39,525 nucleotides of DNA from Bdellovibrio sp. Lineage in GTDB: Bacteria; Bdellovibrionota; Bdellovibrionia; Bdellovibrionales; Bdellovibrionaceae. The notes under the pieces were generated by a model, which was not told the DNA's origin, searched no databases, and was given only the letters and a program-made list of their open reading frames with translations. The DNA lies in NCBI GenBank assembly GCA_013360185.1, contig JABWCO010000017.1:1-39525 (forward strand). Direction: 5' to 3'. The position numbers were made by a program, and so were the translations under genes. Below are positions 19,242-28,279 of this stretch, piece after piece (position 1 is the stretch's first letter; each line of letters begins with the position of its first letter).

Positions 19242-20618
19242 TTAATTTTCTTTTGTATCTATACCGTAGGCTTTGATTTTTCTGTGAAGATAGCTTCTTT
19301 CCAGACCAATCACCTCGGCTGTCTTGCTAATGTTCCCGCTATTCTCGGAAATCTTACGTAACAAGTATTCTTTTTCAAATTGAGCCCGGGCTTCTCGGAA
19401 CGTCGAAAGATCTTGCATCTCGACGGCCTTTTCGTCTTCTTTGTCGATCAAACCCGCAAAACGCAAGTCATGCACATCGACAAAATCACCCGGAGTTAAA
19501 ATGTACACACGCTCAATAAAGTTTTTTAATTCGCGCACATTGCCAGGCCAAGAATACTGACCCATTTTTTCAATGGCTTTTTCAGAGAACGCTTTTTTCG
19601 CATAGCCACTTTCCCGCGACACACTGTCGGAAAAATAGGAAACCAAAACTGGAATGTCTTCGACATGCTCTTTCAATGAAGGGACGCGGAACGGGATGAC
19701 GTTTAAGCGATAGTATAAGTCTTCTCGGAAACGCCCTTCTTTGACTTCTTTTTCTAGATCTTTCGACGAAGCTGCGATCACGCGCACATCATTTTCAATC
19801 AGCTCACGACCACCGACCCGAGAATATTTTTTCTCGTCTAAGTATCTGAGAAGTTTTGCCTGAGCTGGCATGTTCATATCGCAGATTTCAGCGATATACA
19901 GAGTTCCGCCATGTGCTAGATCCAATTTGCCTTTTTTCAGACGATCCACGCCGGGCATCGCCCCTTTTTCAATGCCGAAAATTTCTGATTCTAAAAGATC
20001 TTCCGGAATGCCGCCGCAGTTGATTTCGACAAATGGACGCCCCGCACGCGCACTCATGTAATGCACGTTCTGGGCAACCAGCTCTTTGCCTGTGCCGGCC
20101 TCGCCCTGAATTAAAACCCACGAATTCGTCGGCGCCACGCGCGCAATGATTTGTTTCGTTTGCACAATCGCCGGGGCTTCGCCCACTAACGCGATCGACT
20201 TACGCAATTTATTCAATAACAAGGCTTTTTCTTCTTTTTGTTGCTGATAGCTTAGGATATTCGAAATTACGATTAAGATTTTATCCATCGACAACGGTTT
20301 TTCGATGAAGTCCCAAGCGCCTAACTTGGTCGCCTTCACGGCTGTCTCAATCGTGCCGTGTCCTGAAATCATCACGAACTCAACGTGGGGAAATTCTTTT
20401 CGCGCCATTGTAAGGACTTGAATGCCATCATATTTTCCCGGCATCCAAATATCTAAGAACACGACCTCAGGTTGAAAATCGCGAATGGCTTGCAAACCGG
20501 ACTCACCGTCGTGAGCAAAGGAAACTTGATAGCCTTCGTCTTTTAAAGACGCCGACAAGACATCGCGAATGGGGGCTTCATCATCGATAATTAAAATTTT
20601 TGTATTCAAAGCCGTCAC
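19242..20618 (-). CDS. ntrX: NtrX-like response regulator with degenerate sigma54 motifs
   Basis: The 458 residues have a receiver (1-125: acidic pair IDDE, phospho-Asp56 in FLDIWMPG, Lys107 in IEKP), an AAA+ domain (about 140-375) and a Fis-type DNA-binding end (NISKTAEVIGLERSYLHRKI). Walker A GEAGTGKE at 172-179 is intact. The sigma54-contact loop reads GAMPGV (219-224) instead of GAFTGA, and Walker B reads LYIAEI with Ala243 for the catalytic Asp. ATP binding may survive, but ATPase-driven sigma54 activation should not. It probably acts as a conventional activator or repressor under NtrY, encoded 14 bases upstream. The family assignment rests on the NtrY pairing and sequence style. Confidence 0.9.
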   Translation of the reverse strand: MTALNTKILIIDDEAPIRDVLSASLKDEGYQVSFAHDGESGLQAIRDFQPEVVFLDIWMPGKYDGIQVLTMARKEFPHVEFVMISGHGTIETAVKATKLGAWDFIEKPLSMDKILIVISNILSYQQQKEEKALLLNKLRKSIALVGEAPAIVQTKQIIARVAPTNSWVLIQGEAGTGKELVAQNVHYMSARAGRPFVEINCGGIPEDLLESEIFGIEKGAMPGVDRLKKGKLDLAHGGTLYIAEICDMNMPAQAKLLRYLDEKKYSRVGGRELIENDVRVIAASSKDLEKEVKEGRFREDLYYRLNVIPFRVPSLKEHVEDIPVLVSYFSDSVSRESGYAKKAFSEKAIEKMGQYSWPGNVRELKNFIERVYILTPGDFVDVHDLRFAGLIDKEDEKAVEMQDLSTFREARAQFEKEYLLRKISENSGNISKTAEVIGLERSYLHRKIKAYGIDTKEN

Positions 20619-20632
20619 CAGGACCTTCTTTC

Positions 20633-22840
20633 TTATTCACCCGCAGGCTTCCACGCGCCCACTTGGTTCACCGGCATTTCGATCACCATCTTCACACCTT
20701 GAGGCTCATTGGCCGTGGCACGAATGAATCCGTTATGATCCTCAATAATCCGTTTTACAATGGCTAAGCCTAACCCAGTTCCGCCCTCTTTTGTAGAGTA
20801 GTAAGGCTCAAAAATACGACTTCTATCTGACGCGGGAATGCCCTCGCCATTGTCAGCCACGGTTAAGCGCACCGTCTTGATGTCCTTGTCGTATCGAGTC
20901 ACGATTTCAACCTTAGATTGTGGCTCTTTAGCCACAGCGGCGACTGAGTTATCCACTAAATTTACCAAAACACGCTTGATCTGATCCGGGTCAAATTTGA
21001 AATCCGGCAGTTCGTTGTCTTTGTTAAAGATGAACTGCACTTGCGGGTGAGCTTGGCGATAAAGACCCAAAGATTCCTCGACCACGCTGTTTAGGTTCGC
21101 AACCACGGGGCGGGCTTGCGGCAAACGCGCAAAGTTGCTGAACTCGTTCACCAGATTTTTTAAGCCATCAACTTGCTTCACAATCATGGTCGTGCACTCA
21201 CTGAATGCTGGATCCGTGATCGAGGCCCCGAATTTTCTTTGCAGTCGTTCCGCAGAGAGCTTAATCGGGGTCAAAGGATTTTTAATTTCATGAGCAATAC
21301 GACGAGCCACTTCGGTCCAAGCCGCCGCACGTTGCGCGTTGGCAATCGGAGTCAGGTCATCAAACACCAAGATCTTACCCATCTCGCGACCCTTTTCGTC
21401 TTTCAACATTGAAAGAGTCATCAGCAATGGCAAAGCCTCTCCCTGAACGTTGATGCGCAATTCTTTTTGAATACTTTCGACTTTGTGGTCGGTCATGGTT
21501 TTTTGTAGCTCTGCAAAAGTACGGAAGTATTCTAAGGTCAAAAGATCCCGGACCGACTTGCCGATATATTTTTCTGTTTCAATTTTTAATAACTCTGCAG
21601 CATGACGATTGATCGTCGTCACATAGCCGTGTTCGTCCACTGATATAACCCCGGCGCTAACGTTCTTTAGCACAGTATCCGTATATCGCGCGTGCTGATC
21701 CAGCTCTTGCAACGACTTTTCCAAAGCCACCGTCATCTGATTAAAACTTTGAATCAGGTCACTGATTTCTTCAGAACCCGACTTAATTTTTAGTGGCGTA
21801 TAATCCCCGCCAGCCACTCGACGAGTCGCCTGCCCCAGTTGCACAATCGGGATCGCCAGTTGTTTAGCTAAGTAAAAACCAAACCAAGTGGCCGCAAGCA
21901 AAATCACGAAAGTCATCAAAACTAAGATATAAAGATAAATAGACTTAAGAGGATATTCGAGGGGATTGATATCGCGAAACTCATCATACGCTGTCGAGAT
22001 ATCGTTCATTTTTGAAATCAAGGACAACGGCAAGAAGCTTGAAACAACGATAGCACCTTTGTCTCCGCCCTCTTGCACGGGCACAATGACTCGCACCAAG
22101 TTCCCATCACCAAACTGATGGATAAGACTTGCTTCGGCTTGCAGCTTAATACCTTTTTGCAAGAACTCTAAGGACACTGCCGGAACAGTCGGCACTGTAT
22201 CGTCTTCGGCTGAAACCACCACGCGCTTACCAAAAAGGGACGGATAGTATTCCACCGCATCCAGACTGAACTCTTTGCGCAAACGCTCAACCCGGCTTTT
22301 GATTTCGCTTTGACTTTTCAACGGACGAATCGAGTCCGCAATTTGATGAGCAAAGTGATAGTTCTTTTTCTTGGCATTAAAATAATAGGCGTTAGTAACT
22401 TCAATCGAGCTTTTTAATACGCCCGCCATCTTAACGCTGAACCATTTATCAAAGCTCGAGTTAATGTAAAACACCGAGATAATAAACATCAGCACAGTCG
22501 GTACGAAGCTGAAAGTTGTAAAGGCCGCGATGAGTTTCGCCTTTAAACTGCTGCCAAAGACTCGCCCCTGTCGTTCGACGAAAACTTTGACGACGTTACG
22601 GAAAATCATGAACAGCAATAACAACAACAAAATGATGTTAAAGTTGACCAGACCAAAGAAGAAAATACTGTGTACGAAAGGAAGCTGCTGGCTGGTTGCA
22701 AACAGACGGATTTCAAACCATGTTAACAGACCAAAAAGAAACGACACCACCAAAACCAATATGATTTCGCGGCGTCGTTTTTTAAATTCCTGGGAACCAG
22801 GAAGGACAAGAGAATCGTCTTTAGGGGGTGTTTGTTCCAT
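20633..22840 (-). CDS. ntrY: NtrY-like sensor histidine kinase
   Basis: This 735-residue membrane kinase has about four membrane helices (residues 25-48, 58-80, 102-125 and about 303-325), the last two flanking a periplasmic sensor region. A HAMP domain follows (KQLAIPIVQLGQATRRVAGGDY), then a PAS domain (about 390-500), the phospho-His in RIAHEIKNPLTPIKLSAERL near residue 520, and an ATPase domain with DNSVAAV, DNGEGIP and GGTGLGLAI. This layout is that of NtrY. AAGGTG precedes ATG 22840. NtrY/NtrX pairs respond to nitrogen, redox or envelope cues in different bacteria; the stimulus here is unknown. It lies 37 bases after ribH. Confidence 0.93.
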   Translation of the reverse strand: MEQTPPKDDSLVLPGSQEFKKRRREIILVLVVSFLFGLLTWFEIRLFATSQQLPFVHSIFFFGLVNFNIILLLLLLFMIFRNVVKVFVERQGRVFGSSLKAKLIAAFTTFSFVPTVLMFIISVFYINSSFDKWFSVKMAGVLKSSIEVTNAYYFNAKKKNYHFAHQIADSIRPLKSQSEIKSRVERLRKEFSLDAVEYYPSLFGKRVVVSAEDDTVPTVPAVSLEFLQKGIKLQAEASLIHQFGDGNLVRVIVPVQEGGDKGAIVVSSFLPLSLISKMNDISTAYDEFRDINPLEYPLKSIYLYILVLMTFVILLAATWFGFYLAKQLAIPIVQLGQATRRVAGGDYTPLKIKSGSEEISDLIQSFNQMTVALEKSLQELDQHARYTDTVLKNVSAGVISVDEHGYVTTINRHAAELLKIETEKYIGKSVRDLLTLEYFRTFAELQKTMTDHKVESIQKELRINVQGEALPLLMTLSMLKDEKGREMGKILVFDDLTPIANAQRAAAWTEVARRIAHEIKNPLTPIKLSAERLQRKFGASITDPAFSECTTMIVKQVDGLKNLVNEFSNFARLPQARPVVANLNSVVEESLGLYRQAHPQVQFIFNKDNELPDFKFDPDQIKRVLVNLVDNSVAAVAKEPQSKVEIVTRYDKDIKTVRLTVADNGEGIPASDRSRIFEPYYSTKEGGTGLGLAIVKRIIEDHNGFIRATANEPQGVKMVIEMPVNQVGAWKPAGE

Positions 22841-25263: not shown

Positions 25264-26448
25264 CTAGCCGCGGCCTGGCTTCGTAGAGGCGCCCGTTTGT
25301 TGCCCAGAAGAGCTTTCAGCAGCGCTGGAGTTGGAGTTCGAGCCTTCAACACCGGCCTCTTCTCCTTTATAGTCTTTCGCGTGGAATTTAAACAGAACTA
25401 CGCGAGCACCGACTTCCGGCTTATCGTCGTTTTGCTCGATCACTCGGGCGCGGGAAATCTCATCACCTACCCAGTCGATCTCAACTTTGGCAACCGCTGA
25501 GCTGACTTTTGATCCGCCCCCGATATAAGCCGAGTTGCACGGCTCTCCTTGCCAATAATGCAAGTCATTGTAAATCAAAAGCTGGTCACCAGCTTCAAGT
25601 CCCACATCAGAACCGCCAATGATAACCATGTGCGTATCGTGATCAGCCAAAACGCGTGTGTGCCATTCTTCTTTTTTTAATTCATCACTTAACAAATCCA
25701 CAGACTTGATCAGAGCGTTCTTAGTAACTTGCGCTAATGGCGTTTGATAGTAGGCACTTGGGCCAATATTAAACGCACCAAAGTTCAAACCAAAATTCAC
25801 GCGCGTTTTAGTTTGCTTAGAAGTCACGTTGCCAGCTGCCATTACTTTTGAGGTTAAGGGACGAGTCGCACGCAATGACAAATCAAGTTGCGAAAACTCA
25901 ACATTGAAACCCGCCGAAGTAAGTCCATTCGTTGGCAAAGCACCGTTCGGAGTAAAGCCGATCGTCAAACCTCCACCACCGATTAATTCAAAAGAATTTA
26001 CTGCGCCAGAAATTTTTGCTTGAGGAATGTTCACCATACACCAAGCCGTTTTTGCGTACTCGATGTTGTAATTATCCTTACCCGCTGCTTGCGAAAAAGA
26101 CTTCATCATCTGACCGTCAGCTTTAGTAAGGCTAAAGAAATTGGTGTCACCCGTTGCTTGTTGCGGAGGAACCGCAATGACGGGGTTGTACTTTAAAGTG
26201 AAGGACTTGCTATCTAATAGCACGCCATAAATTTGTTGGTTGGCGACAAATTGAAAGTCGAAAGAGCTGCCACCCGGAAACATGATCGGGCTTGAGCGTA
26301 TGGAACCCAGTTCAACAATCTTCTTCAGGGAACGTTCCGCAGTGGGTGCTTGTTCGCACTTTTGATTTCCCATGGTCATCGCAGCACCTAACATCATCAC
26401 TGATGCTTTCGCTAACTTCTTCGACCAGTTCTTGCTTTGTGAGTTCAT
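25264..26448 (-). CDS. Exported protein with FlgT/CsgG-like C-terminal region
   Basis: The 394 residues begin with a basic stretch and hydrophobic core (KKLAKASVMMLGAAMTMG) suggesting export; Cys31 follows, but the preceding residues do not form a good lipobox. The middle has glycine-rich beta-type sequence. Around 235-300 the pattern ALIKSVDLLSDELKKEEW, then a hydrophobic strand and GGSDVGLEAGDQLLIY, matches the C-terminal part of FlgT and CsgG-family periplasmic proteins. Residues 365-394 are low-complexity Ser, Gly and Glu. AAGGGA precedes ATG 26448. A GTCTCA palindrome lies 113 bases upstream. An envelope role is likely; the molecular function is not known. Confidence 0.68.
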   Translation of the reverse strand: MNSQSKNWSKKLAKASVMMLGAAMTMGNQKCEQAPTAERSLKKIVELGSIRSSPIMFPGGSSFDFQFVANQQIYGVLLDSKSFTLKYNPVIAVPPQQATGDTNFFSLTKADGQMMKSFSQAAGKDNYNIEYAKTAWCMVNIPQAKISGAVNSFELIGGGGLTIGFTPNGALPTNGLTSAGFNVEFSQLDLSLRATRPLTSKVMAAGNVTSKQTKTRVNFGLNFGAFNIGPSAYYQTPLAQVTKNALIKSVDLLSDELKKEEWHTRVLADHDTHMVIIGGSDVGLEAGDQLLIYNDLHYWQGEPCNSAYIGGGSKVSSAVAKVEIDWVGDEISRARVIEQNDDKPEVGARVVLFKFHAKDYKGEEAGVEGSNSNSSAAESSSGQQTGASTKPGRG

Positions 26449-26488: not shown

Positions 26489-26494
26489 AGTATA
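26489..26494 (-). promoter_or_regulatory. Possible -10 box for the FlgT-like gene
   Basis: TATACT on the minus strand sits 41 bases before ATG 26448 and follows the GTCTCA palindrome by about 67 bases. No good -35 box is present at 16-18 bases, which fits a promoter that needs an activator. Confidence 0.35.
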
Positions 26495-26560
26495 CGGACA
26501 ATAAGCCCTAGACCTTAAACCTGAGCTAAGTAATTGAGGACACTTGAAAAAGTAAAACCG

Positions 26561-26575
26561 GTCTCACCCTGAGAC
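26561..26575. promoter_or_regulatory. GTCTCA-N3-TGAGAC palindrome upstream of the FlgT-like gene
   Basis: A perfect 6-3-6 inverted repeat lies 113 bases before ATG 26448. The same perfect repeat with a different spacer stands 110 bases before the neighbouring gene. Same arms and same distance point to a shared dimeric regulator. No T run follows on either strand, so a terminator is unlikely. Confidence 0.6.
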
Positions 26576-26742
26576 GCGCTAAGTATTTGAATTTATAGGG
26601 CAGAAAGAAAAATTAAAGAGCTTAAAAAAAATGCGCTTGTCAAAACTATCGACTCTTTTACTCAACCTCGAATAGAAATTTCCTGACGACTACCGAGGTC
26701 CTGTAAAAATATTTTCCACTATCAAAAACAATCAGACATTTT

Positions 26743-27516
26743 TTAGAAAGTGATTCTGAGCCCAAGCATCGCACCACCACTGGCGATGGGCAATAAAGCG
26801 GGATGGAAAGTGATTTGATCCTCACCCATGCGAGAGCGAATTTCGCGATAGCGACGATTGTGCTCTGGTGGCACGGCCCACAAGTCGACAATCTCCCAAA
26901 CTTTAAAAGCGATAAATCCGATTGCACCCGCAACAATGGCTCCACCATCGTTGCAGCTTTCATAGTAAGACCCTTGCCAGCAATCACGAACGCCAGAGAC
27001 CATCAATACAATCGATGCAGCTTCCCCAACGGTAAAAATCCAACCTGTATCCAAATAACGACCTTGAATGGCTTGCCCGATGCCAAAGCCCAGAGGATAA
27101 GTTCCCAAGATGCCCCCAACCACATAACGAGTCGGCGTGATCTCACCGATCTGTAAGATCTTGCGCTCACGTTCAGACAAAGAACTGTAAGAAATTTGCT
27201 CGTTGCGATTATTGTTCTTTTCCAGGGTCTTTTCTTTTGTCGCCCCCAAGGTCTTCTTTTCCAACGTCATCCCGACTTGCACCTTGCCTGAAAGAATTTT
27301 TACTAAAGCTTTCTGGCCGCCTGCAGAGACTTTGGTGACTTCACCTTCACCTGACAAATCAAGGTCCTTCGTAAGGAACAAAACACGATCCCCCACTAAA
27401 AGATTTTCGGAGTTTTCTAAATTCACAGAGGCTTCGTTATTCTGTACACGCATCACGGTCTGCGCGAAAGAGATTGTGGAAAAAAGAAACATCGCTAAGG
27501 CTAATGCAGCTTTCAT
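26743..27516 (-). CDS. Exported membrane protein, P13-like
   Basis: The start at 27516 is chosen because AGGAG lies four bases before it and the signal peptide (MKAALALAMFLFSTISFAQ) follows directly; an ATG at 27546 would add ten residues and has no ribosome site. The 257 residues contain a small beta-rich region (about 20-90, with two GDRV/GM-type turns), a charged linker (KEKTLEKNNNRNEQ), and hydrophobic segments with LGTYPLGFGIGQAIQGRYLD, a pattern that recalls the spirochaete P13 porin family. The end GLRITF has a terminal Phe as in barrel proteins. The family call is tentative. It carries the palindrome 110 bases upstream. Confidence 0.68.
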   Translation of the reverse strand: MKAALALAMFLFSTISFAQTVMRVQNNEASVNLENSENLLVGDRVLFLTKDLDLSGEGEVTKVSAGGQKALVKILSGKVQVGMTLEKKTLGATKEKTLEKNNNRNEQISYSSLSERERKILQIGEITPTRYVVGGILGTYPLGFGIGQAIQGRYLDTGWIFTVGEAASIVLMVSGVRDCWQGSYYESCNDGGAIVAGAIGFIAFKVWEIVDLWAVPPEHNRRYREIRSRMGEDQITFHPALLPIASGGAMLGLRITF

Positions 27517-27625
27517 AAAACTCCTAAACGGTTTGTCAATATACAAAGCCTAGAGGCGTGCTGGTGGCAAAGCAAACACTTTGCTGAACTAACTAAAAAA
27601 ATGTTTCGTCTTAAAAAAAGGTCAA

Positions 27626-27640
27626 GTCTCAAAATGAGAC
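27626..27640. promoter_or_regulatory. GTCTCA-N3-TGAGAC palindrome upstream of the P13-like gene
   Basis: A perfect 6-3-6 inverted repeat lies 110 bases before ATG 27516, matching the one at 26561-26575 in both arms. It is also 166 bases upstream of the divergent gene at 27806, so a regulator bound here could affect both directions. Confidence 0.6.
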
Positions 27641-27750: not shown

Positions 27751-27766
27751 AGGCACAACTCTGGCA
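27751..27766 (+). promoter_or_regulatory. Possible sigma54 -24/-12 promoter
   Basis: AGGCAC, six bases, then GGCA gives GG and GC separated by exactly ten bases, as sigma54 needs; most other consensus bases agree, except one T in the -12 box. The start codon at 27806 lies about 40 bases downstream. It is a single weak-to-fair match. Confidence 0.35.
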
Positions 27767-27805: not shown

Positions 27806-28279
27806 ATGGAAAAACACGTTCTATTGGCAATGGCCGTTATCATGGTACTGGGTTCAGTAAAAGCACTAGCCATGTCGGATCAAGATCTGATGGATATGAA
27901 TCAACAATCTAAAGTTGAAGCGATGGTTCGCAATCAACAAATGGATCGATTAGACGAGGTCGCTCACGGCAATGGCCAAATTCAAGCAGCACAAAAAAAC
28001 CACATCAGAGACCTTCGCATAAAATCAGCACAAACCATCAATGCGCTTGTCAAGTTAGACCAAAATAGCATCTTAAGCGAGAGCGGCATCGGGCAAGTTG
28101 AAGATATGCTTAGCCGCGCTTTCAAAGTTAGTAAAGACTCAGAAAGTAGCAATCTGATTCAAAATGCCTGGGAACTTTCAGAACTCGCAAGACCTGACCT
28201 TGAAAACATCATTAACGTTTACAACCTAAAATTAGAAGAACTCAGTCCTCGCGAAATGAACGATCTTGAACTTTTTTAA
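27806..28279 (+). CDS. Small secreted alpha-helical protein, unknown function
   Basis: The 157 residues begin with a signal peptide (HVLLAMAVIMVLGSVKALA, cleaved near residue 22). The mature part is almost wholly helical, acidic, rich in Gln, Asn, Met and Leu, and has no cysteine. AAAGGAGAG upstream fits ATG 27806 well. It is transcribed divergently from the P13-like gene, and ends at a strong shared terminator. I recognise no family. A periplasmic or secreted role follows only from the signal peptide. Confidence 0.75.
   Translation: MEKHVLLAMAVIMVLGSVKALAMSDQDLMDMNQQSKVEAMVRNQQMDRLDEVAHGNGQIQAAQKNHIRDLRIKSAQTINALVKLDQNSILSESGIGQVEDMLSRAFKVSKDSESSNLIQNAWELSELARPDLENIINVYNLKLEELSPREMNDLELF

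Follow-up and report, generated by a model that had tools for sequence, protein, structure and literature searches.

The palindrome GTCTCA-N3-TGAGAC, present in two perfect copies in a 39,525-nucleotide stretch of Bdellovibrio sp. DNA (contig JABWCO010000017.1; hereafter, the window), is most likely, judging from its distribution and placement across genomes, the operator of a regulator specific for the order Bdellovibrionales. Its binder is probably an order-specific protein of ~144 aa, which carries a Fis/NtrC-type HTH_8 domain and no AAA+ motor. To our knowledge, no regulator has been described for this site, and a search of open-licence papers revealed neither the motif, nor Fis-family proteins in Bdellovibrio, nor a matching regulon. 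The switch between attack and growth in Bdellovibrio has been described as largely unknown (PMC3627812); an order-wide site, frozen before fliA in the genus, and a small candidate protein together offer a directly testable regulator.

Both palindromes were found with the coordinates and spacers given in the initial annotation (Table 1), and its estimate of about 0.002 chance occurrences per window, making two improbable, was reproduced: 0.0024 perfect sites are expected, and the probability of at least two is ~3e-6. The draft genome to which the window belongs contains eight perfect sites against 0.2 expected and none for a reversed-pattern control; with up to one mismatch, the numbers are 53 and 8, respectively. 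All 24 genomes of the genus bear between 1 and 25 perfect sites, with almost no control matches. Across the order, perfect sites are present in 128 of 141 genomes and amount to 1,007 against 19 for the control (both obtained by summing the per-genome listing), while the 228 genomes from the rest of the phylum hold 43, near the control level. This order-wide enrichment, along with the placement of the sites upstream of genes, bears out the earlier view of a genuine regulatory element with a regulon.

Among 55 distinct perfect sites, the only further informative base on each side is an outer T before and an outer A after the palindrome (51%), giving the extended consensus tGTCTCAnnnTGAGACa with the arms tGTCTCA and TGAGACa; the spacer and flanks are free of conservation, and the invariance of the arms is partly by construction, the set having been chosen as perfect sites (copies with one mismatch are also common). 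Since the arms are invariant, the centre is free, and the flanks are random, the element looks like the site of a dimeric protein rather than an RNA hairpin or a repeat. A perfect inverted repeat could indeed form a 6-bp stem with a 3-base loop, but a hairpin, terminator, or mobile repeat is a very improbable reading, largely refuted by the random flanks, a T-run that is not conserved, the location of the sites upstream of starts, and the arm codons frozen at the DNA level before fliA (see below). A one-mismatch copy, GTCTCAGGATGAGAT, is located at 1629-1643 of the window, just 5′ of a minus-strand gene whose start, MKNPIILALDVDTRDQALK, resembles pyrF. In L059, L080, and L098, a perfect copy lies within a response-regulator gene over the peptide SHPET, maybe as a coding coincidence.

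The sites are not spread at random through coding DNA, an outcome that the initial annotation had named as contrary to its proposal: 98 of the 116 distinct perfect sites are outside genes. For 56 unique sites with a single target, the median distance to the ATG is 106 bp, with quartiles of 75 and 139 bp. The 113 and 110 bases previously counted from the window sites to the two start codons are correct (112 and 109 intervening bases when counted edge to edge), but given this distribution the equal distances are unremarkable, and a conserved, special spacing of about -110 was not borne out. Exported-looking products are encoded by 48 of the 56 targets versus 57 of 119 control genes nearby (p=1e-6; simple scripts assigned the gene starts and signal peptides), in agreement with the suggestion that the sites precede genes for exported proteins. 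In one genome of the set (G001), the targets include a polysaccharide deacetylase, papain-like and subtilisin-like proteases, a PhoD phosphatase, an HD-domain protein, and a PilZ protein. The anticipated regulon is seen in upstream sites across the genome; it reaches far beyond the two envelope genes and takes in fliA.

Two classes of promoters accompany the sites. Sigma-54-like promoters lie within 115 bp of the start in 27 of 117 targets versus 16 of 205 controls (p=3e-4), and sigma-28-like promoters in 25 of 112 versus 11 of 205 (p=1e-5), after five repeated orthologues of the 394-aa gene described below had been removed by hand from the latter count; sigma-70-like promoters show no enrichment in targets versus controls over the same 115 bp. 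The significant sigma-28 test used the published consensus over the fixed 115 bp; because an earlier test with TAAA-N15-GCCGATA over a wider region was not significant (p=0.13), the apparent association with sigma-28-like promoters is graded as moderate. Only one target has promoters of both kinds, and roughly one in two has neither. The centre of the site lies at a median of -75 from the inferred start sites of sigma-28-like promoters and of -114 from those of sigma-54-like promoters, these start sites being consensus matches. As the distances to promoters vary widely, a single activation geometry is insufficient to describe them. Helical phasing is weak relative to sigma-54 start sites (p ~0.04) and was not detected relative to sigma-28 start sites (R=0.07). 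Two further arrangements were considered and rejected: no sigma-70 promoter was found at a fixed distance from the site, and an overlap of the palindrome with a -35 box, hinted at by a T at +37, proved unsupported once the sequences were read.

Table 1. Location of the two palindromes and of the neighbouring genes and promoters in the window
Feature	Position	Strand	Remarks
Sigma-28(FliA)-like promoter, TTTAAG ... CCGTATAC (TTAAG-N16-CCGTATA)	26490..26519	-	In a conserved block of the orthologue alignment; close to the published consensus
394-aa exported protein ("FlgT-like" in the initial annotation)	25264..26448	-	Sub-threshold CsgG match only
Site 1, GTCTCA-CCC-TGAGAC	26561..26575		Perfect palindrome, 112 bp before the 394-aa gene
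257-aa exported protein	26743..27516	-	Borrelia P13 match below threshold; site 2 is 109 bp away
Site 2, GTCTCA-AAA-TGAGAC	27626..27640		Perfect palindrome between two divergent genes; no counterpart before P13-like orthologues
Sigma-54-like promoter, AGGCACAACTCTGGCA	27751..27766	+	110 bp after site 2, 39 bp before the 157-aa ATG
157-aa exported protein	27806..28279	+	165 bp from site 2; more likely the site 2 target

The two sites of the window differ in their conservation. The 394-aa gene is found in 20 genomes of the genus, its own included, and 18 of the 20 copies are preceded at -97 to -125 by a site with at most three mismatches, so that the conservation upstream of orthologues proposed for site 1 is indeed observed. 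The conserved block 5′ of these orthologues holds, besides the site, the sequence TTTAAG-N16-CCGTATAC, which is close to the published FliA consensus; in the window, this sigma-28-like promoter is situated between site 1 and the gene, with site 1 at about -84 relative to it. In many of the orthologues (L176-L187), the site is directly followed by CCGGTTTTGnTTTTGCAAG, whose GG-N10-GC spacing may mark a sigma-54-like element that overlaps the operator; after site 1, the GC of this element is lacking. The "FlgT-like" label of the product rests on a match below the Pfam cut-off (CsgG, E=0.03).

The same applies to the "P13-like" label of the 257-aa protein (Borrelia_P13, E=0.002, 18.5 bits versus a 25-bit cut-off). 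Site 2 does precede the ATG of its gene as described earlier, but it is also located 5′ of a divergent plus-strand gene for an exported protein that had not been mentioned (Table 1). None of the P13-like orthologues in the five other genomes of the genus with relatives (0/5) is preceded by a site, which leaves joint control of this gene unsupported. A weak homologue of the 157-aa protein in L028 (BLASTP E=1e-4) has a site, there at 161 bp, together with a promoter-like block of similar kind, and site 2 may serve the divergent 157-aa gene.

A constrained copy is found in front of fliA, a gene named here, in line with the Bdellovibrio literature, after its sigma-70 domains and position. In 24 of 24 genomes of the genus, the site is located near the 3′ end of the preceding gene (flhG by position and an ATPase-type N-terminus), at a distance of 187-236 bp from the start of fliA; 18 copies are perfect and the remainder have one or two mismatches. 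Arg and Leu each have six codons. The codons of the arms are frozen (CGT in 24/24, CTC in 21/24, GTG in 21/21 Val, and AGA in 24/24), while variation is seen in the Ile codon over the spacer and in many codons of the flanks, and this pattern indicates that the copy is under selection at the DNA level, independently of any promoter model. The stretch from the end of the upstream gene to the start of fliA holds a block, TTGGACTTT...TGTTTGnTAACAT, that is strongly conserved in 24 of 24 genomes (L195-L218); it looks like the fliA promoter, and no standard sigma consensus tried by eye fits it.

Which protein might recognise the palindrome is suggested by its occurrence in front of a regulatory gene. 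The gene of a ~140-aa protein ending in ...GNLTEAAKALGIGRATLYRKVKQY.ID has a perfect site in front of it in two other genera, and the genome of the window carries the corresponding gene at G000:C83:10231-10659. The C-terminus of this candidate matches Pfam HTH_8 (49 bits versus a cut-off of 22, E=5e-13), and its N-terminus has no Pfam match. AlphaFold predicts a beta-alpha-beta-alpha-alpha arrangement, a disordered linker, and an HTH (pLDDT 72, pTM 0.35), the latter matching the DNA-binding domains of NtrC and Fis in Foldseek, with phmmer hits to Fis structures. The gene is single-copy in 126 of the 141 genomes of the order and absent from all 228 genomes from the rest of the phylum. The median number of perfect sites is 6 in genomes with a good copy versus 1 in those where it is lacking or diverged (p=1.5e-5, a value that ignores phylogeny, which the association partly follows). 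There are mismatches in both directions, several of them in drafts: sites occur with the candidate undetected in G018, G112, G114, and G101, and the candidate occurs with the perfect site absent in G044, G060, G062, G097, and G120. A separate 99-aa Fis-like protein is present in L235 and L236, where the candidate is an additional Fis-type protein and not the Fis of the genome.

In 19 of 29 orthologues, the 330 bp before the candidate gene itself contain the site with two mismatches or fewer. Within the genus, this copy is degenerate (TTCTCA-N3-TGAWAC or GTCTCACGATGGAAC) and falls precisely into the spacer of the sigma-28 promoter CTAAA-[site]-GCCGATA; the genus alignment displays this promoter as TAAA-N15-GCCGATA. 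Among 60 further, distant orthologues, 16 have a site (two mismatches or fewer) versus 1 in the reversed control and 1.4 expected, 44 are without a recognisable upstream site, and most show a sigma-28-like promoter (score of at least 9/11) ~50-90 bp before the gene. The half-site TGTCTCAAAAAAA, another conserved element, is seen ~25 bp before the sigma-28 promoter of the candidate gene in L154:1281-1500 and its genus relatives.

Conceivable, but quite improbable, is a binder from some other family with no relation to the HTH_8 protein, for example a LysR-type regulator. The geometry of the palindrome is also compatible with LysR-type boxes, and GTCT-N7-AGAC fits a T-N11-A box at about -65. Yet the only DNA-binding regulators noticed directly 3′ of the sampled sites are the HTH_8 protein and fliA, and it is the HTH_8 protein that has a matching genome range and sites at its promoter.

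More weight should be given to the possibility, still unlikely, that the sites are enhancers of an NtrC-family sigma-54 activator combining an AAA+ domain with HTH_8 (e.g., the 452-aa protein at G001:2804764 with the HTH FEAHAI...SRSSLYKKIKDYKI), so that the small Fis-like protein would be a competitor or co-regulator. HTH_8 domains of this class recognise the 17-bp frame of the palindrome, each of two genomes has more than 12 HTH_8 genes, and the sigma-54-like promoters enriched near the sites are at a normal enhancer distance. However, sigma-28-like promoters are equally linked to the sites, and an NtrC-type sigma-54 activator cannot open sigma-28 promoters. Moreover, none of the other HTH_8 genes examined in the genome of the window (G000) and in G001 has an upstream site, and eight genomes without a site or an intact candidate still carry rpoN, a gene that nearly all genomes possess and whose presence does not separate those with sites from those without. 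In the window, an NtrC-type response regulator (458 aa, HTH_8) and a sensor kinase (735 aa) are encoded in tandem at 19242-22840, with no copy of the motif upstream of the regulator.

If the small HTH_8 protein is the binder, the following scheme may be envisaged. In this protein, a flexible linker would join a short beta-alpha-beta piece at the N-terminus to the C-terminal Fis/NtrC-type HTH_8, and a dimer of it would contact tGTCTCA and TGAGACa without reading the 3 bp of the centre, in the manner of NtrC at TGCACCAnnnTGGTGCA. Because its gene has a sigma-28 (FliA) promoter, the protein would be made in the attack phase. When bound, it would act mostly 45-145 bp 5′ of the sigma-28-like and sigma-54-like promoters of genes for exported proteins, positions that are most simply explained by a role of an upstream activator or a DNA-bending helper. 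The site inside the gene before fliA might allow feedback of the candidate on fliA, of either sign, and in the genus the degenerate site between the -35 and -10 elements of its own sigma-28 promoter would suit negative autoregulation. It is a tentative and somewhat doubtful extension of this scheme that the candidate forms a feedback loop with sigma-28, brings the sigma-28 and sigma-54 promoters of genes for exported proteins, some of them predatory, under one programme, and is a missing regulator of the attack/growth switch.

Comparison with known systems places the palindrome closest to NtrC and Fis. The NtrC box is TGCACCAnnnTGGTGCA (PMC8743547), and eight of its positions (T1 G2 C6 A7 / T11 G12 C16 A17) are identical to those of tGTCTCAnnnTGAGACa; the two share the 17-bp palindromic frame TGnnnCAnnnTGnnnCA (the outer T/A pair being present here at 51%) and the unread 3-bp centre and differ in the inner bases of the arm, CAC in the NtrC box and TCT here. 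From this likeness, the palindrome is expected to work as an NtrC/Fis-type operator, with binding by an HTH_8 domain as the prediction. NtrC-family activators have the DNA-binding fold in common with the candidate, and sigma-54-like promoters are found near part of the sites; however, these activators contain an AAA+ sigma-54 interaction domain, whereas the candidate matches HTH domains only and the sites here also accompany sigma-28-like promoters. At 144 aa and without the AAA+ domain, the candidate is not itself an NtrC-type activator. Fis is likewise a small protein with a C-terminal HTH_8 and offers a parallel for a possible role of an upstream activator or DNA bender, but its N-terminal part is unlike that of the candidate, whose site is a strict palindrome, and the score of the candidate against the NCBIfam Fis equivalog (28.5 bits versus a cut-off of 99) rules out Fis proper. 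The LexA site attributed to Bdellovibrio, TTAC-N3-GTAA, is also a short palindrome with a 3-bp spacer; its arms differ from those described here, as the initial annotation had recognised, and so does its gene class. Finally, the FliA (sigma-28) consensus of B. bacteriovorus is TTAAG-N16-CCGATA, a third of its mapped attack-phase promoters showed no strong motif, and the mapping, with 140 attack-phase start sites, did not extend to growth-phase promoters (PMC3627812). The FliA attack-phase regulon (PMC3627812) overlaps with the targets of the palindrome in gene classes (surface proteins, proteases), the consensus lies near many of the sites, the candidate gene has a FliA-type promoter, and fliA has a conserved site.
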